From: Saprospiraceae bacterium
Lineage (GTDB): Bacteria; Bacteroidota; Bacteroidia; Chitinophagales; Saprospiraceae
Direction: 5' to 3'
Length of the DNA: 64,000 bases
Assembly (NCBI GenBank): GCA_017985675.1
Contig: JAGNXB010000011.1
Location: 1-64,000, forward strand
The position numbers and the translations under genes are program-made. Positions 7,615 through 64,000 of this stretch are shown one piece after another. The notes beneath the pieces were generated by a model. It saw only the letters and a list, made by a program, of their open reading frames with translations. It did no database searches and was not told the origin of the DNA. How positions within the stretch are numbered: position 1 is the stretch's first letter; each line of letters begins with the position of its first letter.

Positions 7615-10065
7615 ATGAACCATAATTATATGTTTCGTAGCAACCTGTTAACAGTACTTTTTTGCCTTGCAGTGACGGTCGTCTGTCAAGCGCAACCTAT
7701 CAATGAATCTACGCCTGAAGCAAACAGAAAGTTTGCCATAGAACTATTTGAAAAGAAGGATTACTTCAATGCCAGGGTCAAACTGGAAAAGGCGTATGAG
7801 GATTTCAAAACAAATGATCTGGCTTGGATGATGGCTATGTCGCATTATTATATGCGCGATTACCGTTCCGCCGAGCGTTGGTTTACCCGAATAGGCCGCC
7901 GGGATAAAACGGGCGAATTCCCGGAATCTCAGCTTATGAAAGCGCGGATGATGAAAATGAACAGCAAGTATGAAGAGGCCATTGGCGAATTTAATGATAT
8001 TATTAAATCGGATGCAGATCCGGATGTCAAACGCAAAGCGCAACTTGAATTATCAGGGGCCAACCTCGCGCTCGAAAGTGCTGAAGCAAAACGATTGACA
8101 CTAAATGATGCAGGAAAGAGTTTGAATACACCCGGTAGTGAAGGTTCGGTATTTATAGCTCCTAACGGCACCGATTTATATTATACCTCTTTTGATCAGG
8201 CGGAAGCACTGGTCTTAAAGGACGATGTGGAGCCTCCATATAGTAAAGTCATTAAAGCGACATGGTCTGATGATAAATGGGTAAAGGGAACCGCGCTCAG
8301 TGATAAAGTGAATCGGGAAGATTACCATTCTGGTAATGTATCGATAAGTCCTGATGGAGATCGTATGTATTTTACCCGGGTACTCATGAAAGTGGATAGC
8401 ATGCAGGAAAGCAAAATTCATTTGTCCCGCAGAGAGGGTAGTGATTGGGGACCTGCTTATGAAGTGACCGGCGTCAATGGAGATTGGATGGCAAAAAATC
8501 CGTGCATTGGCGAATTGTTTGGAAATGAAGTCATGTATTTTGCTGCGGATATACCCGGCGGGCATGGCGGATTTGATATTTATTATGCACGAAAAATTGA
8601 TGATTTAAATTTTGCCGATCCGGTGAATATTGGAACAGTGATTAATGGTGCAGGTAATGAAATTACGCCGTATTATCGGGATGGTCGCTTATATTTTAGC
8701 TCTGATTCGCATGTCAATTATGGCGGCTTGGATATTTTCCGCTCGGATTGGGATGGTTCCAACTGGAGTAAAGTCGAAAACATGGGCAAGGGCTTTAATA
8801 GTGCTGCCGATGATTTTGGCTTTACCGTAGATGCAACGGGATTTAAAGGTGCTTTGCTTTCTAACCGTCCTGAAGGTAAATCCCTGGACAGCAAAACCTG
8901 CTGCGACGATATATATACCTTCACTATTGCCCCCGTTGAAGTGGATCTCACCGTTACGGTAATGGAAGGCGAAAAAAAGGGATTATTGCGCGGCGTGAAT
9001 GTCCAGTTGATCGAAATGACGGGTGACAAAATGGGCGTTACGCAAAGTGTTGCAACTGGGAATAAGGGCACATCCGCTTTCAAATTAGGTACTGATAAAG
9101 CATATCGGATTATTGCATCTGCAAAAGGTTTTTTTCCGGATACCCTTGATTTTAATACGGCCGGGATTAAAGAAAACCTTTCTCTGGCTAAGACACTTGT
9201 CATCATGCCTGAACCGCGTGATCCGGAATATGAATTGTATACCACTGAAGAGCCTATCCGTCTGAATAGTATCTATTATGATTACGACGATGACAAGATT
9301 CTTCCTGATGCCGAGCCCCAGCTCCAGTTGCTCACGGATTTGTTGAATCAGTACAAGGATATGGTCATTGAATTATCCTCCCACACGGATGCACGAGGCA
9401 ATGATGATTATAACCAAAAATTGTCCCAACGCCGTGCCCAGTCCGCCAAAAATTGGATCGTATCAAAAGGTATCGCAGAGGACCGGATTAAACCGCTAGG
9501 ATATGGTGAAACAGTTATTCTCAACAAATGTGCTAACGATGTGGATTGCACTGATGATGAACACCGCTTTAACCGTCGTACTGAATTTAAAATTCTCTCC
9601 GGCCCTACGTCTATTTTGATTGAAAAGAAGCGACTGAAAGGTGAAGATAAAAGTGGAACTCAGGCACCCAAAAAACAAGTTAAAGGTCAGGGGCAAGTGG
9701 GTGATTCGGTACCTTCAATGCCAGACATAAACCAGGGTTTGATTAAATGGGAACAAGAGGGTGTTGATTTTGGCACAATGAAAAAAGGCGACGTAAAAGA
9801 GACCATTTTTACATTCCGGAATATCAGCAATGAACCTGTAATCATCGAGCTTTGTAATGCCTGTGATTGCATGACATTGGACTGGACTGCCCTTCCTGTT
9901 AAACCGGGAGCAACAGGTCGGATTGAAGCGCGCTTTGATACGACAAAAAAGGAAGTCGGTGATGTCGTGAATGATTATATCAATGTTATTCTGGCAAATA
10001 AACATGCGGGTACCACACACCCGGTTATTTATGAATTAAATTACAAGGCCCGGATTGTCGAATAA
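7615..10065 (+). CDS. PorE-like OmpA-family protein with C-terminal DUF1573 domain
   Basis: The 816-residue protein has a signal peptide (to about residue 26), TPR-like helices (about 30-160), a PD40/WD40-type propeller (about 170-440), a carboxypeptidase-regulatory-like beta sandwich (about 447-535) and an OmpA C-terminal peptidoglycan-binding domain (about 553-660, with SSHTDARG, NQKLSQRRAQS and FNRRTEF). That order matches PorE of Porphyromonas, which links the T9SS to peptidoglycan. Unusually, about 40 linker residues are followed by a DUF1573 domain (about 704-816, with DFGTMKKGD and ACDCMTLDW). It directly follows the PorP/SprF gene and ends at a strong terminator. Confidence 0.88.
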   Translation: MNHNYMFRSNLLTVLFCLAVTVVCQAQPINESTPEANRKFAIELFEKKDYFNARVKLEKAYEDFKTNDLAWMMAMSHYYMRDYRSAERWFTRIGRRDKTGEFPESQLMKARMMKMNSKYEEAIGEFNDIIKSDADPDVKRKAQLELSGANLALESAEAKRLTLNDAGKSLNTPGSEGSVFIAPNGTDLYYTSFDQAEALVLKDDVEPPYSKVIKATWSDDKWVKGTALSDKVNREDYHSGNVSISPDGDRMYFTRVLMKVDSMQESKIHLSRREGSDWGPAYEVTGVNGDWMAKNPCIGELFGNEVMYFAADIPGGHGGFDIYYARKIDDLNFADPVNIGTVINGAGNEITPYYRDGRLYFSSDSHVNYGGLDIFRSDWDGSNWSKVENMGKGFNSAADDFGFTVDATGFKGALLSNRPEGKSLDSKTCCDDIYTFTIAPVEVDLTVTVMEGEKKGLLRGVNVQLIEMTGDKMGVTQSVATGNKGTSAFKLGTDKAYRIIASAKGFFPDTLDFNTAGIKENLSLAKTLVIMPEPRDPEYELYTTEEPIRLNSIYYDYDDDKILPDAEPQLQLLTDLLNQYKDMVIELSSHTDARGNDDYNQKLSQRRAQSAKNWIVSKGIAEDRIKPLGYGETVILNKCANDVDCTDDEHRFNRRTEFKILSGPTSILIEKKRLKGEDKSGTQAPKKQVKGQGQVGDSVPSMPDINQGLIKWEQEGVDFGTMKKGDVKETIFTFRNISNEPVIIELCNACDCMTLDWTALPVKPGATGRIEARFDTTKKEVGDVVNDYINVILANKHAGTTHPVIYELNYKARIVE

Positions 10066-10089
10066 ACATTCATTCGAACGATTTAACCT

Positions 10090-10122
10090 AAAAAAGACGC
10101 GCCAGCCAGCGCGTCTTTTTTT
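10090..10122 (+). terminator. Intrinsic terminator after the PorE-like gene
   Basis: AAAAAGACGCGC at 10091-10102 pairs with GCGCGTCTTTTT at 10109-10120 around the loop CAGCCA, and the T run continues to 10122. It closes the PorP-PorE transcript 25 bases after the stop codon. Confidence 0.9.
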
Positions 10123-10162
10123 ATGTAGCTTTTTTAATAAACGGTATTAGCATTCGTAAATT

Positions 10163-10226
10163 CAACTCCTCCTCTCCTCAACTCCTCCTCTCCTCAACTC
10201 CTCCTCTCCTCAACTCCTCCTCTCCT
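10163..10226. repeat. Four perfect tandem copies of a 16-base unit
   Basis: The unit CAACTCCTCCTCTCCT occurs four times without change at 10163, 10179, 10195 and 10211, and a truncated fifth copy follows. It is almost pure pyrimidine on this strand. The same CTCAACTCCTC phrases recur inside the neighbouring 180-base units. Confidence 0.9.
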
Positions 10227-10261
10227 CAACTCCTCAAAACCTCCTTCCTATCAAAAGGGGC

Positions 10262-10860
10262 CCTCGGTTCGCTCACCGAATGTCCACTGGACATTCGCCC
10301 CTTCGGTACGTGAGCTTATCCTCCTCAACTCCTCATCTCCTCAAAACCTCACTACTATCAGAAGGGGCGCTCGGTTCGCTCACCAAATGTCTGCATTTTG
10401 TTGATTTACTAAAGGCATTTCGTAAGCCTCGCGCAGGGGCGCTCGGTTCGCTCACCGAATGTCCACTGGACATTCGCCCCTTCGGGTACGTGAGCTCACC
10501 CTCCTCAACTCCTCAACTCCTCAAAACCTCACTACTATCAGCAGGGGCGCTCGGTTCGCTCACCGAATGTCAGCATTTTGTTGATTTACTAAAGGCATTT
10601 CGTAAGCCTCGCGCAGGGGCGCTCGGTTCGCTCACCGAATGTCCACTGGACATTCGCCCCTTCGGGTACGTGAGCTCACCCTCCTCAACTCCTCAACTCC
10701 TCAAAACCTCACTACTATCAGCAGGGGCGCTCGGTTCGCTCACCGAATGTCAGCATTTTGTTGATGTGCTATGGGCATTTCGGAAGCCTCGCGCAGGGGC
10801 GCTCGGTTCGCTCACCGAATGTCCACTGGACATTCGCCCCTTCGGGTACGTGAGCTCATC
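10262..10860. repeat. Tandem array of about 3.3 copies of a 180-base unit
   Basis: Units start at 10262, 10441, 10621 and 10801 (last one partial). The first is one base short; the units at 10441 and 10621 are identical over their first 120 bases and differ at only a handful of positions after that. Each unit has a perfect inverted repeat, arms CGAATGTCCA and TGGACATTCG around a single C (10277-10297, 10456-10476, 10636-10656, 10816-10836), flanked by GCTCAC and GTGAGC that also pair. A separate copy of the palindrome sits at 11030-11050. Confidence 0.9.
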
Positions 10861-11161
10861 CCTCATCCCTATGAATAGGCCTCGCGCAGGGGGTGGAATA
10901 ATCTGGAATCTGAGAATCTGGAATCTGTCCACTGGACATTCGCCCCTTCGGGTACGTGAGCTCATCCTCCTCAACTCCTCAACTCCTCAAAACCTCCTTC
11001 CTATCAAAAGGGGCGCTCGGTTCGCTCACCGAATGTCCACTGGACATTCGCCCCTTCGGGGTCTGTGAGCTCATCCTCAACTCCTCCTCTCTCCCTCAAA
11101 CCCTCCCTACTCAACCCCTCCCTACTGTCATTTGCCAAGTTCCCCTATCTTCCGACCGGAT

Positions 11162-11725
11162 ATGGATAATCTAAAGTTTTGGCTGGAATGGAGCGCCGTA
11201 GGATTCAACCTGATGTATGTGTGGTATACCATGCGACAGAGTCTATGGAGTTGGCGGATGGGGATTATTGGGGTGATCTTGTCCTTTTGGGTATACGTTA
11301 ATTACGCCTTGTATTCCGATGCTACCCTGCAGGTATTTTATGGAGTGCTTTGCCTGTATGGCTGGTGGCAGTGGCAACAACCGGTTATGTCGCCGAAAGG
11401 TTATCATCGGATGTCCCCTGGATTGATCGTTATTGCCACGGGAATAGGGATCATAGGCGGATTGTCCATGGGTTTTTTCTGGAAGCAATTTGGGGCTGCC
11501 TTACCCTTTTGGGATGGTATGACTACCAGTTTCAGTATGATCGCCACCTGGCTTACAGCTAAAAAGTACCTTGAAAATTGGATGTTCTGGCTCGTGATAG
11601 ATATCGTTTGTGTAGGGATCTATATCCAGCGTGATATCCAGCCCTTCGTGGTGTTGTTTGCCATTTATACTATTCTATCCGTGTGGGGTTACCGGAGTTG
11701 GTTGAGACTGGGGCTGGTATCCTAA
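11162..11725 (+). CDS. pnuC: PnuC family nicotinamide riboside (or thiamine) transporter
   Basis: From the ATG at 11162 the protein has 187 residues with about seven membrane segments, including VLCLYGWWQW and the C-terminal WLVIDIVCVGIYIQR. These features and length fit the PnuC family, which moves vitamin precursors by facilitated diffusion across the inner membrane. In Bacteroidota some members (PnuT) carry thiamine and lie beside thiamine genes; there is no such neighbour here, and I see no TPP or NAD riboswitch, so nicotinamide riboside is the default but unproven substrate. An upstream TTG at 11132 would add ten residues of spacer-like sequence and is less likely. Confidence 0.85.
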   Translation: MDNLKFWLEWSAVGFNLMYVWYTMRQSLWSWRMGIIGVILSFWVYVNYALYSDATLQVFYGVLCLYGWWQWQQPVMSPKGYHRMSPGLIVIATGIGIIGGLSMGFFWKQFGAALPFWDGMTTSFSMIATWLTAKKYLENWMFWLVIDIVCVGIYIQRDIQPFVVLFAIYTILSVWGYRSWLRLGLVS

Positions 11726-59944: not shown

Positions 59945-62900
59945 ATGAGAAAACCATTTACTCCTGCCCGGGTATTCCGTGCTGTTATGGGATTGCTATC
60001 CATTAGCCTCCTTGCGCATACAGCCTTAAATGCAAATCCGGAGAAACCCATTATCTTCAAACCTCAGCTCACCCCTGCATCCATAGAAATGATGGGTAGC
60101 TGTCCAGGCTGTGGCCCTAATCTGGCTCCGAATGGTGGTTATGAAGATAATACAAGTTCCATTCTTGGGTCAAGTTGGAAACTTGGTGGTTCCAATGGTA
60201 GTCGTACGGTGCGTCTGACTACTGAAAATAGTTCCTTCGATGATATTGACAACTGGTTAGCAGCGCCTAATATCTACTATGTCAAGAAGGATGGGAAAAC
60301 AAACAATCCTGAAGGGGAATATTTTGTTTGGTTGCCCAATAAAGATCAATGTTTTAATACCACTCCCGGCGTGATTGGAGATCTTAATTTGTGTCCCGGC
60401 AGGCCTTATACGATTTGTTTTAAAGCGGCTGCCTGGAAGAATAATCTGGTTAATTGGGTGCCACAAGCCACTATTCCCGCTCAAAAATCTTCAAGGCTTA
60501 ATATTGAATTTTCTTTTGAAGGCAATCCTTCAAACCTGGAATATCAAACACAATTTCCCCTCCCAACAAGTAGCAGTTGGTCAAGTTTGAACTGGCAGAC
60601 ATTGAGTTTTAGCTTTATCTATGATCCTAACAAACCGCTCAGTTCCATATTTTTCACAAATGCGGGCAATACGGGTGATGCTGAAGTAGGCGTTGCTATT
60701 GATGATTTTGCTATTTATGCTGACGATTGTTCCAGTTGCCCACAGGTCGATTGGACATTTGGCTGTGATGATAATAAAAAGGTGGACCTCTATGGCAAAA
60801 GTAGTAAGGACCAGCCATCTACAACATTGCCGATTCCTGATCCGGCATCTATTTATCAAACAGTAGTTGAAGTTATTTATAAAGGCACGAATCCAGGAAC
60901 AACGATTACCATCGTGGATAATGCCAATAATAATTATCTCGCATATCGAATTACGCCTTTAGGCGGTAGTAGTAGCGTTTGGGTTTACCGGGCAATGCTG
61001 CCTTCGGTAAGCTCGGTTAAACACACCCCTCCAAATGGATATACAGGATCAGTCCAGTCCATTGTCGCCTATGCGTTTAGAAACACACAACAAAAAGTAT
61101 TAGAAACAGGTGTGTTTACAAATTTGAGTGGATACAATAATTTAGCTACGCTTAATTTTAAGGTGCCACTGGGATCAGCTACCAGAAATGTTGATGTTGA
61201 GCTGCCCATTTCAGAATTAACAAATGATGGCCGTTACCTTATGGTTAAGGCGACAGCGGCCGGGATATCAACCCAACAAATTGTCTACGGTTCGGATCCT
61301 TCCTTGGGTGGTTGTTGCCTCAATATAATTCGTCTTACGATCCCCAATGTTCCTGCTAATACAACCGATGTTCAGGTAGTGATCGACACAAGGCACAATA
61401 TGAATGGTCAGAACGTAAACGGCCAATCGTATGTCATTTCGGGCGCAGTGCGCGTAGCTGCTTTGTGTGCAAGCACTTGTCCTGTTGCAGTACAATACAA
61501 TTTGGATGCTTGTGCAGGAATTAATCCGTTTGATCCTTCCATTGGTCTTAATGCTTCCTATTTAAATACCCAGGACTGTGGCAATTTAACAGCATCCAAA
61601 ATTAAACGATTACAAGCTGTTTCATCTTCCTGCTCAAGTAATACACCATTCCAAAGTGGGAAATCGGTTAGGTTGACTGCTAACCATTTGTCGGCATGGG
61701 CAGATGCAGGTCAAAAAGCGTTTGCATTTACAGTGACCATCCCTCAGTGTGTTGAAGGCAGCTTGAGCAGCATGCGTTTTTGGAATAATTCACCCTATAA
61801 GGACGAAAATGGATCGTATAATGGATATCCGGCAAAATATGGCTTCCGGATCCTGAAAAATGGTACCGAGGTTTATCAATTAATTGACTTGGCTACATCC
61901 GCAAACGCTTGGTTTCAAGCGGTTCATTTCCTCGAGAACATTCCAGCTTTAACTTATACAGGAGGAGAAACCTTCACCTTTGAATATATGGCGTATGGTC
62001 CTACGGGCAACGGCAACAATGTCTGGTTGGTTGACCAGTTTGAGGTGTTCGCTTGCTGTAGTGAACAAGCACCCACACCAAATTTTGCCATTCCTGATAA
62101 AATTTGCAAGGATAATCCGTCCGTCTTCATTGCAGACAATAGTGGGAATGGAGTATATACATGGAATTTTGGAGCAGGGGCTATGCCTGCAACGGCAAAT
62201 GGTATCGGTCCGCATTTTGTCACCTGGCCTACTTCTGGCCCGAAAACAGTGACATTAACCTATGGGGAAGGTACCTGTCAAGGCACTGTTTCAAAAACAA
62301 TTAATGTTGAAAATTGCGACGATATTAAGTGTGGATTAATATCGGTGACGGTAAATCAAAATTCCGATTGTTATACAAGTACAGGCAAACTTCACGTTGA
62401 TGTATGTGAATCCTGCGGGACTTCTTATCCGATTACAGTTTATTATAAACAAAATGGCATTCAGAAACAGGCAGGTCCATTTAATAATGATGGGGTCATC
62501 CTAACCAATTTACCTCCTGGTGTTTATTCTGATATTTATATTGTTGACAATAAAGGCTGTAATTCCAATAAAGTTGGTCCCATTACAATTATAGCTTCTG
62601 GACTTCCCAATGTTTCTGCGGAAAAATGTGAAGTAACGGAATGTATTATTACAGATAAATTGGAAAGTGATGGAAAGACCCGAACATTTTGGTTGCCGGG
62701 TCTGCCTAATATTAGCGACCCAAGATTTAAATGGGATGGTACAGGGTCATTTGAGGTTTTTGCAAATGGGACAGCAAAACTCTCTGGAACAATCCGATCC
62801 GTTCAGAATAATAACTGCGGATTTAATGTTGTTATTAATTTAGCAAATCGCCGGACATGGCCGCAATGGTCTGCTTTAGGTCGATCATATAAAGGTTGTG

Positions 62901-64000
62901 ATGACAATAATAATGGTAATAACAATTATTATCAAAATTGGGAATATTATGAAATCGTAAATACCAGTAAATTAACAGGATTTGGATGTTATTCTGGTTC
63001 GTTAACGATTACACATAAACCTGCCAATTACAATTTTGGCTTCCAAATTGGACAGGGAGCTAATGTATTTAATTGTGACGTTCCGGGCGTTTCTGCTTGG
63101 TTTATGTATCAGGGTACCCTGAATAGTATATCGTATTCAGGGGAAGGTGACATTAATGCACTAGGAGGCTGTGGTAATGGAATAAATGATCCAAGTCCTG
63201 AAATTCCGATTCTTACTTGTCCTCCTTGTAAAACGGTTGCATGTGACGCTTCCCTTGATCCGGCAAGCCTGGGCAATCCTGTAGTAAATTGTGAAAATTT
63301 AACTTGCAATTTGACCTATACGGATACTTATAACGGTGCTTATCCATTAACACTAACCCGCACCTGGACAGCAGCTTGTGGCAACACAAATGCCACATGT
63401 AAACAGGATATTATTTTACTTAATTCCGTTACGCCTGAATTTGCTGTTCCTGATAAAAACTGTAAGGACAATCCTTCGATGTTCGTAGCAGATAATATCG
63501 GCAATGGGACATACTCATGGAATTTCGGTCCGGATGCGTCACCACAAACCGCTTCCGGTATTGGACCACATTTTATTACCTGGAGTACTGCCGGAACGAA
63601 GACAGTAACGCTCACTTATGAAAGTGGGCCATGCGATCAAACCATAAGCAAACAAATTTTAGTTGAAGATTGTGATGATATTGAATGCGGATTAATTTCA
63701 GTTACTGTTAATCAAAATTCAGATTGTTATTCGAGTACAGGAAAGTTGCACGTTGATGTTTGTGAATCTTGTGGAACGACCTATCCAATAACCGTTTATT
63801 ATAAACAAAATGGTGTTCAAAAACAGGCTGGTCCATTTAATAATGATGGCGTGATATTAACCGATTTGCCTCCTGGAGTATACACAGACATTTATATTGT
63901 CGATAATAAAGGTTGCACATCCAATAAAATTGGCCCGATTACAATCATAGCTACAGGGTTGCCAAATGTTTCTACAGAGAAATGTGAAGTGACAGAATGT
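59945..64000 (+). CDS. Giant repetitive secreted protein, 3' end beyond the window
   Basis: An uninterrupted frame runs from the ATG at 59945 to the window edge: 1352 codons with no stop. A signal peptide is likely (MRKPFTPARVFRAVMGLLSI, cleaved near residue 31). The N-terminal 270 residues resemble a galactose-binding beta sandwich (CPGCGPNLAPNGGYED, LCPGRPYTICFKAAAW). Further on, a PKD-like module with NFGAGAMPATANGIGPHF (from residue 710) and a Cys-bearing module (from residue 796, CGLISVTVNQ) return as close copies from 1162 and 1248, a period of 452 residues. An HYR-like segment (LTRTWTAACGN) lies between. It is probably a T9SS cargo adhesin, but its end is not seen. Confidence 0.85.
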   Translation, partial: MRKPFTPARVFRAVMGLLSISLLAHTALNANPEKPIIFKPQLTPASIEMMGSCPGCGPNLAPNGGYEDNTSSILGSSWKLGGSNGSRTVRLTTENSSFDDIDNWLAAPNIYYVKKDGKTNNPEGEYFVWLPNKDQCFNTTPGVIGDLNLCPGRPYTICFKAAAWKNNLVNWVPQATIPAQKSSRLNIEFSFEGNPSNLEYQTQFPLPTSSSWSSLNWQTLSFSFIYDPNKPLSSIFFTNAGNTGDAEVGVAIDDFAIYADDCSSCPQVDWTFGCDDNKKVDLYGKSSKDQPSTTLPIPDPASIYQTVVEVIYKGTNPGTTITIVDNANNNYLAYRITPLGGSSSVWVYRAMLPSVSSVKHTPPNGYTGSVQSIVAYAFRNTQQKVLETGVFTNLSGYNNLATLNFKVPLGSATRNVDVELPISELTNDGRYLMVKATAAGISTQQIVYGSDPSLGGCCLNIIRLTIPNVPANTTDVQVVIDTRHNMNGQNVNGQSYVISGAVRVAALCASTCPVAVQYNLDACAGINPFDPSIGLNASYLNTQDCGNLTASKIKRLQAVSSSCSSNTPFQSGKSVRLTANHLSAWADAGQKAFAFTVTIPQCVEGSLSSMRFWNNSPYKDENGSYNGYPAKYGFRILKNGTEVYQLIDLATSANAWFQAVHFLENIPALTYTGGETFTFEYMAYGPTGNGNNVWLVDQFEVFACCSEQAPTPNFAIPDKICKDNPSVFIADNSGNGVYTWNFGAGAMPATANGIGPHFVTWPTSGPKTVTLTYGEGTCQGTVSKTINVENCDDIKCGLISVTVNQNSDCYTSTGKLHVDVCESCGTSYPITVYYKQNGIQKQAGPFNNDGVILTNLPPGVYSDIYIVDNKGCNSNKVGPITIIASGLPNVSAEKCEVTECIITDKLESDGKTRTFWLPGLPNISDPRFKWDGTGSFEVFANGTAKLSGTIRSVQNNNCGFNVVINLANRRTWPQWSALGRSYKGCDDNNNGNNNYYQNWEYYEIVNTSKLTGFGCYSGSLTITHKPANYNFGFQIGQGANVFNCDVPGVSAWFMYQGTLNSISYSGEGDINALGGCGNGINDPSPEIPILTCPPCKTVACDASLDPASLGNPVVNCENLTCNLTYTDTYNGAYPLTLTRTWTAACGNTNATCKQDIILLNSVTPEFAVPDKNCKDNPSMFVADNIGNGTYSWNFGPDASPQTASGIGPHFITWSTAGTKTVTLTYESGPCDQTISKQILVEDCDDIECGLISVTVNQNSDCYSSTGKLHVDVCESCGTTYPITVYYKQNGVQKQAGPFNNDGVILTDLPPGVYTDIYIVDNKGCTSNKIGPITIIATGLPNVSTEKCEVTEC

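Follow-up and report, generated by a model that had tools for sequence, protein, structure and literature searches.

A three-hairpin repeat element dispersed between the genes of a Saprospiraceae bacterium shares its central hairpin with genomes of several phyla

Introduction

REPs are defined by a GTAG or GTGG tetranucleotide placed 0–2 bases 5′ of a hairpin foot, and other feet exist, such as CnGA in class 3, with no GTTC foot among the REP class descriptions in the accessible part of the source (PMC6006769). CGTC REPs are palindromic repeats of several phyla, Bacteroidetes included, that have no dedicated transposase; the accessible part of their description gives a CGTC tag (or TGTC, CCTC), a CCA tail, stems of 8–9 pairs starting with A-T pairs, and loops of 4–5 (PMC3733652). 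Here we describe a repeat element of a Saprospiraceae bacterium that follows the plan hairpin 1–GTTC–stem (hairpin 2 + hairpin 3)–TCAYC. Like the REPs and BIMEs that go with RAYT (TnpAREP), as far as the accessible text of PMC6006769 describes them, it has short hairpins, many mainly extragenic copies, a constant tetranucleotide at the foot and other hairpins in the same frame. Unlike them, it has a GTTC foot where REPs have GT[AG]G, three hairpins instead of one, copies arranged head to tail in a cluster, and no adjoining hairpin-bearing RAYT gene; of the features of the GTAG class it thus shows the many extragenic copies, but neither the foot nor the flanking RAYT. The GTTC at its foot is reminiscent of the guide sequences found in REPs and at IS200/IS605 ends. 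With CGTC REPs it shares an occurrence in several phyla including Bacteroidetes and the absence of a dedicated transposase, whereas its GTTC...TCAYC frame appears to differ from the CGTC tag and CCA tail, a separation made by description and not letter by letter from the accessible part of PMC3733652.

In its composite architecture the element resembles the BOX elements of Streptococcus, which in the accessible part of PMC3049150 likewise have a module at each end with tandem middle units in varying number between them, fold strongly and contain spurious ORFs. This is a likeness of plan and not of sequence: host and letters differ, and BOX ends have been likened to IS ends (PMC3049150, accessible part), whereas no such IS was found here. 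Bacterial MITEs are similarly non-coding, strongly folded, dispersed and 70–300 bases long, but clear terminal inverted repeats, a target-site duplication and a parental IS are not apparent for our element in the own genome. Its ends look consistent, starting with hairpin 1 and finishing with TCAYC, and the copies in one other genome (G034) have, by eye, inverted ends AGAGTTGTTTCGCAGGGGC. Searching the literature by topic and by the letters GTCCACTGGAC, GTCCAGTGGAC, GGCCATCCATGGCC and GGTTCGCTCACC gave no title describing the repeat, with titles searched, subscription journals mostly outside and earlier publication possible; GGCCATCCATGGCC had no match, and the other three matched papers of which none is titled on the repeat.

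Results

The array in the window

The window is a 64,000-nucleotide stretch of contig JAGNXB010000011.1 (assembly GCA_017985675.1), in which positions 10256–11076 hold five copies and fragments of a single repeat element (Table 1). Tandem Repeats Finder reports a period of 180 with 3.4 copies and 96% matches at 10256–10864, and places the beginning of a CT-rich minisatellite that surrounds the repeat elements at 10162. The units at 10435–10614 and 10615–10794 are identical in 175 of 180 bases and the third unit, compared over its first 72 bases, in 67, which bears out the near-identical units of the original prediction and fits the recent duplication or homogenisation that it had proposed. Each 180-base unit is the sum of a 72-base unit, the GTTC half without a closing stem, and a 108-base unit, the complete element with a CT-rich tail. 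The 21-base palindrome that had been noticed within the units recurs in five exact copies within 10277–11050, and the GCTCAC/GTGAGC pairing suggested further out is present in the minimum-energy fold of 10614–10680, which has a z of −3.25 as DNA on the + strand and −3.88 as RNA on the − strand. Elsewhere, the window contains a 300-base direct repeat of 80% identity (62294–62593 and 63650–63949, 1356 bases apart) and a 63-base direct repeat of 92% identity (214–276 and 335–397) adjoined by short tandem repeats at 234–263 and 402–440.

Table 1. Positions of the array and of neighbouring features in the window.
Feature	Position	Strand	Remarks
Terminator-like hairpin GACGCGC-CAGCCA-GCGCGTC, then T7	10096..10122	+	by eye; upstream gene end
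CT-rich tandem repeat	10162..10237	+	16-base unit TCAACTCCTCCTCTCC; precedes array; Tandem Repeats Finder
Element copy 1	10256..10316	+	without left part of hairpin 1; palindrome 10277–10297
72-base linking unit 1	10363..10434	+	hairpin 1 right half, GTTCGCTCAC; without closing stem
Element copy 2	10424..10501	+	palindrome 10456–10476
72-base linking unit 2	10543..10614	+	
Element copy 3	10604..10681	+	palindrome 10636–10656; copy used for folding
72-base linking unit 3	10723..10794	+	
Element copy 4	10784..10861	+	palindrome 10816–10836
Truncated copy	10926..10967	+	hairpin 2 right part, hairpin 3, closing stem half; without first half
Element copy 5	11009..11076	+	palindrome 11030–11050
262-codon open frame	10280..11068	+	across array; judged spurious

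The array lies within a gene order, OmpA-like, PnuC-like, NqrA-like (names that we assume from reading the translations), that is common to the own genome and four congeners (G001–G004). The spacer before the PnuC-like gene measures 63, 64, 64 and 76 bases in G001, G002, G003 and G004, respectively, versus 1,096 bases here to an ATG at 11162, or 1,066 to a TTG at 11132, which argues that ~1 kb was added in this lineage; since the PnuC-like proteins are only 46–58% identical, this is a distant comparison and not strictly an empty site. The added sequence follows the left gene's terminator-like hairpin, which is outside the element and marks the old intergenic spacer; similar hairpins terminate the same gene in G001 and G002. 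The hairpin scan of the window did not list this terminator, and it was recognised by eye.

Constant and variable parts of the element

Hairpin 1 reads CCTCGCGC-AGGG-GCGCTCGG in the own genome, where it is imperfect, and is perfect in the congener G004 (CCTCGCGC-AGGG-GCGCGAGG). Hairpin 2, CGAATGTCC-ACT-GGACATTCG, contains the palindrome and stands within the GCTCAC/GTGAGC stem, which it shares with hairpin 3 (for example CCCCTTCGGGG), and TCAYC follows the stem. Linking units are 72 or 73 bases long and comprise hairpin 1, GTTCGCTCAC and then AATGTC...GGCATTTCG, without the closing stem, and chains of them mostly terminate in a complete element among the clusters listed. Spacings between neighbouring units are accordingly dominated by such steps, with 72 bases in 29 and 73 in 37 of the 105 measured (66 of 105 together).

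Complete modules were chosen over 40 bases before and 60 after, with GTTCGCTCAC within 3 substitutions, giving 76 modules from 75 sites, a palindromic site in locus L053 being counted on both strands. Hairpin 2 is exact in 63 of these, differs in an arm in 3 and in the loop alone in 10 (4 ACC, 4 ACA, 1 AGT, 1 AAT), and GGTTC is invariant, so that the foot is GTTC in 76 of 76; as the selection tolerated up to 3 substitutions per part, this constancy exceeds the filter. Beside this near-invariant hairpin 2, hairpin 3 is variable and mostly still paired, and its loop is C(TNCG)G in 52 of 69 readable cases (29 TTCG, 18 TGCG, 5 TACG). Eight of the 69 carry a further GTCGCCGAAGCCTTGGCGAAGGCGAC-type hairpin in the loop, a hairpin within a hairpin (e.g. 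L049, L057, L065). With 50 own sequences and 5 from G004 aligned (55 in all), the proportion of paired cells is 98.5%, versus at most 42.6% in slid controls, and both sides have changed in 3 of 19 pairs (6 cells). The covariation score of 0.031 is equalled by the controls slid by +1 and +2 (0.033 and 0.031); because of this, and because hairpin 2 hardly varies, covariation alone is weak evidence. A coding sequence was rejected, the 105 unit spacings leaving remainders 0, 1 and 2 modulo 3 in 39, 50 and 16 cases with no frame kept; none of the frames of the hairpin contains a stop codon, and its translations are ECPLDI, NVHWTF or MSTGHS. The original prediction captured the array and the palindrome; it did not notice hairpin 3, the frame of GTTC and TCAYC, or that the element recurs in other phyla as described below.

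Dispersal within the own genome

Across the 3.65 Mb of the genome (137 contigs) the palindrome matches 84 times forward and 80 times in reverse at ≤3 mismatches, which amounts to ~80 sites since the palindrome is its own complement except at the centre and the strands double-count; the unit core matches 181 times (82 + 99), and reversed control patterns of both match 0 times. Among the matches listed, 53 of 54 clusters lie outside predicted genes and one overlaps a predicted ORF, with ORFs called by a simple length rule and those consisting mainly of repeat removed beforehand. The clusters show a weak preference for convergent gene pairs: the 43 with both neighbours have 25 co-directional, 12 convergent and 6 divergent pairs, compared with 51, 10 and 14 among 75 element-free pairs from the same stretches. 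Clusters and modules are those among the matches listed, with counts that depend on the patterns chosen, and the genomes are drafts and MAGs in which some arrays contain N gaps.

A tRNA gene is near 4 of 47 own loci. A longer host repeat, CTGTCCTCGAAAGGCTCGC ... GGCGAGCTGTTCGAGGAC, which also bears a palindromic stretch TTACTTTTTGTCTTGGCAAAAAGTAA, occurs in several intergenic regions (L063, L079, L087, L092, L051); by eye, one slot in it is occupied by the element in L087 and by a different hairpin-forming stretch in L051.

Occurrence in other genomes and phyla

The palindrome (≤2 mismatches) was found in 3 of 60 relatives, namely the own genome, G004 and G034, and is absent from 3 of 4 congeners, and a 79-base consensus matched 16 of 298 genomes of the family (own included) in 10 of 112 genera. 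The original prediction had allowed for a local accident, with no copies elsewhere in the genome or conservation in relatives; both further copies and relatives were found. The scattered fragments that it mentioned belong to a genome-wide family, and its suggestion of dispersed elements agrees with the ~80 palindromes, the 181 cores, the 53 of 54 listed clusters outside genes, the ~1 kb added and the relatives in other genera.

An exact scan of 257 Gb of public genomes located the 19-base core of hairpin 2, GAATGTCCACTGGACATTC, in at least 104 stretches, where ~2 would be expected from base count alone, with the caveat that palindromes may be commoner than random words. Within the class the exact core occurs in 1 of 395 genomes, the own, and it is rare. 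The taxa among the matches listed are Bacteroidota, Gammaproteobacteria, Alphaproteobacteria and Clostridia, and our reading at the level of loci rests on 80 of the at least 104 stretches. Isolates by title are among the carriers (Clostridium sp. ASF356, with a complete chromosome, Solimonas aquatica, Solimonas fluminis, Flavobacterium cheniae and Paracoccus lichenicola), so MAG contamination is not the explanation of the whole spread. In 25 genomes picked as carriers or relatives (leaving out G339, a repeat of G211), the palindrome has 283 sites at ≤1 mismatch versus 9 for the reversed palindrome. Viral stretches number 3 versus 0 for the reversed palindrome, and viral carriage was set aside as these are too few to matter.

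In Clostridium sp. ASF356 (G327, L391–L397) all 7 perfect-arm hairpin-2 sites fall at 2.53–2.82 Mb of the 2.92 Mb chromosome, within a longer multi-hairpin repeat. Copies of the Flavobacteriia type are considerably shorter and consist of CCGAATGTCCACTGGACATTCTCCTCTTAATATCAAA, immediately beyond which the sequence varies (L141, L143, L147, L155, L156, L165, L185, L198, L201 and others), and a Flavo-1 RNA match lies 68 bases from the copy in L141. At 9 of 15 gammaproteobacterial/acidobacterial hairpin-2 loci a tRNA gene is 16–249 bases away (L142, L151, L159, L181, L182, L184, L192, L193, L205); for frame loci with any hairpin, 3 of 30 have one within 1.5 kb.

A constant frame around exchangeable hairpins

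We grouped 75 of the 80 loci by title and sequence (leaving out L146, L153, L163, L180 and L189), of which 74 were usable; two loci named only Bacteroidetes were put with the Saprospiraceae type, MAG contigs of Nitrotoga and Limnohabitans joined the Flavobacteriia type, and Acidobacteriota and Muproteobacteria the gammaproteobacterial one. At a distance of up to 20 bases from hairpin 2, GTTC is present in 10 of 13 gammaproteobacterial/acidobacterial loci (1.5 with shuffled flanks) and in 12 of 12 Saprospiraceae-type loci (1.4), and TCA[CT] is on the opposite side in 11 of 13 (3.0) and 6 of 12 (3.5), respectively. Bacteroidales have GTTC in 3 of 10 (1.1) and TCA[CT] in 7 of 10 (2.5). A helix of at least 6 pairs surrounds hairpin 2, without the GTTC/TCAY frame, in 13 of 15 Clostridia loci (7.5% of shuffles) and 3 of 4 Rhodobacterales loci (9% of shuffles), and the Flavobacteriia type has neither helix (4 of 19, versus 15.5% of shuffles) nor frame (GTTC in 0 of 19). 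The loci counted were selected on hairpin 2 alone, and members of a group are related, so these counts are not independent.

Searching with hairpin 1 + GTTCG gave matches in 4 of 5 gammaproteobacterial genomes, the reversed pattern matching in none, and 47 of the 68 distinct gammaproteobacterial elements end in TCA[CT]CC. The hairpins framed in these 47 comprise 12 with hairpin-2-like arms (≤1 substitution each), 9 with TGCC-type tips, 7 with TGAC, 3 with AGCTTCGCT and 16 others. In some Gammaproteobacteria the stems thus differ widely from copy to copy yet stay paired: folding up to the TCA[CT]CC end, with 21 of 68 rows dropped beforehand, gave 711 Watson-Crick and 11 G-U pairs, or 17 G-U pairs with the other strand folded. 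A stem finder that allowed no bulges proved too stringent, with a score of ≥8 for 15 of 74 elements, and folding took its place; RNAalifold on 14 gammaproteobacterial-type loci recovered hairpin 2 alone, as the variable stems misalign. Such near-perfect pairing without strand preference would fit a process at the level of DNA better than selection on RNA, and the own genome appears to hold one expanded type of this frame with an exchangeable hairpin.

Search for a mover

Y1 (PF01797) matches number 2 in the own genome and occur in 9 of 10 relatives and 11 of 20 carrier genomes (among these 11, the places found in G338 and G339 repeat those of G182 and G211). RAYT (Y1) could not be tied to the element as its mover and was rejected: hairpin 2 (≤4 substitutions) was present at 0 of 51 Y1 loci (0/22 + 0/29) within ~1.5 kb on each side, and 9 of 20 carriers have no Y1 match. 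Shuffled palindromes reach a mean of 0.12 of 29 Y1 loci, and since chance gives about the same, the zero says no more than that there is no enrichment. The genomes G323, G325, G327 and G329 have no Y1 match yet contain 22, 15, 9 and 6 hairpin-2-like sites, and Y2 (PF04986) matched in 1 of 18 genomes. A truncated unit core lies ~150 bases downstream of one own RAYT-like gene (L009). Both own RAYT-like genes (L009, L010) stand among palindromes of the ACCCCCAGCGGGGGT type, a different repeat.

At two loci, by eye, a stretch with part of a tRNA gene flanks the element left and right: in L193 it is ~70 bases long and takes in the tRNA-Phe gene's 5′ end, and in L142 it is ~20 bases of a tRNA-Lys gene. 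These flank duplications point to array growth by tandem duplication.

Discussion

The element is present in many copies dispersed between genes and forms modular arrays, with an identical hairpin 2 across phyla and, in certain Gammaproteobacteria, a shared frame that holds varying hairpins. We give roughly even odds (about 0.5) to its being a non-autonomous, non-coding REP/BOX-like hairpin element that is moved in trans by a putative hairpin nuclease, with arrays grown by tandem duplication. The nuclease would recognise the folded single strand, the GTTC beside the stem foot may substitute for the GTAG guide of REPs, copies would be mobilised into intergenic DNA, and arrays like that of the window would then expand by tandem duplication during replication. 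The letter-for-letter recurrence of hairpin 2 across phyla points to some machinery for copying or protecting hairpins of this kind.

In RNA, UNCG loops have special stability, and the C(TNCG)G loops of hairpin 3 in 52 of the 69 readable cases, their second position being T, G or A, hint at RNA and not DNA. They are consistent with a structured RNA element whose copies are transcribed as part of untranslated regions, with a fold that makes messages stable or terminates them and a sequence that is kept because the RNA works, as are the fold as RNA on the − strand (z −3.88), the changes on both sides of 3 of 19 pairs (6 cells) and the convergent pairs around clusters (12 of 43, versus 10 of 75 elsewhere). 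We nonetheless consider it unlikely, because covariation is no higher than in two slid controls, and because G-U pairs, which an RNA would tolerate on one strand, are few on either strand of the gammaproteobacterial framed hairpins (11 and 17, versus 711). No Rfam family reached its gathering score in 9900–11300 of the window or in 19 loci of other taxa; with Rfam 15 the former gave ten matches up to E = 5, all below that score, and the latter six, none on the element by position.

Plain slippage, in which a minisatellite grows and shrinks in place after an old dispersal with no ongoing mobility, would agree with the 72/73-base steps in 66 of 105 spacings, the CT-rich minisatellites around the array and the duplicated flank in L193. 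Dozens of separate intergenic sites all hold a near-identical hairpin 2, however, and with the palindrome absent from 3 of 4 congeners this requires recent spread within one lineage, making slippage quite improbable. Least of all do we expect a site that a chromosome-organising or regulatory protein binds as duplex and that spread for its usefulness. The constancy of hairpin 2, the highest of all parts, and its recurrence in several phyla would suit such a site, but the exact core is confined to the own genome among the 395 of the class, 3 of 4 congeners are without it, and other hairpins replace hairpin 2 in the same frame; the chromosome-organising role named in the original prediction found no support, given a palindrome (≤2 mismatches) missing from those congeners.

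Tentatively, and with the odds against it, we suggest a superfamily that spans several phyla and whose constant frame, hairpin 1–GTTC...TCACC, holds an exchangeable near-perfect hairpin. The tips of this hairpin would include a few that recur, of which GAATGTCCACTGGACATTC is the one shared between phyla. As the arms change wholly yet stay paired, one arm would be made or corrected from the other, possibly by a putative single-strand hairpin enzyme of neither the RAYT/IS200 nor the IS91 type. The stop-free hairpin accounts for a class of spurious ORFs. How palindromic repeats come to occur in several phyla without a dedicated transposase is a question already posed for CGTC REPs, in the accessible part of PMC3733652. 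The present family has a defined frame and an exchangeable insert, and isolates and one complete chromosome are among its carriers, which makes both the recognising protein and the copying of arms testable.
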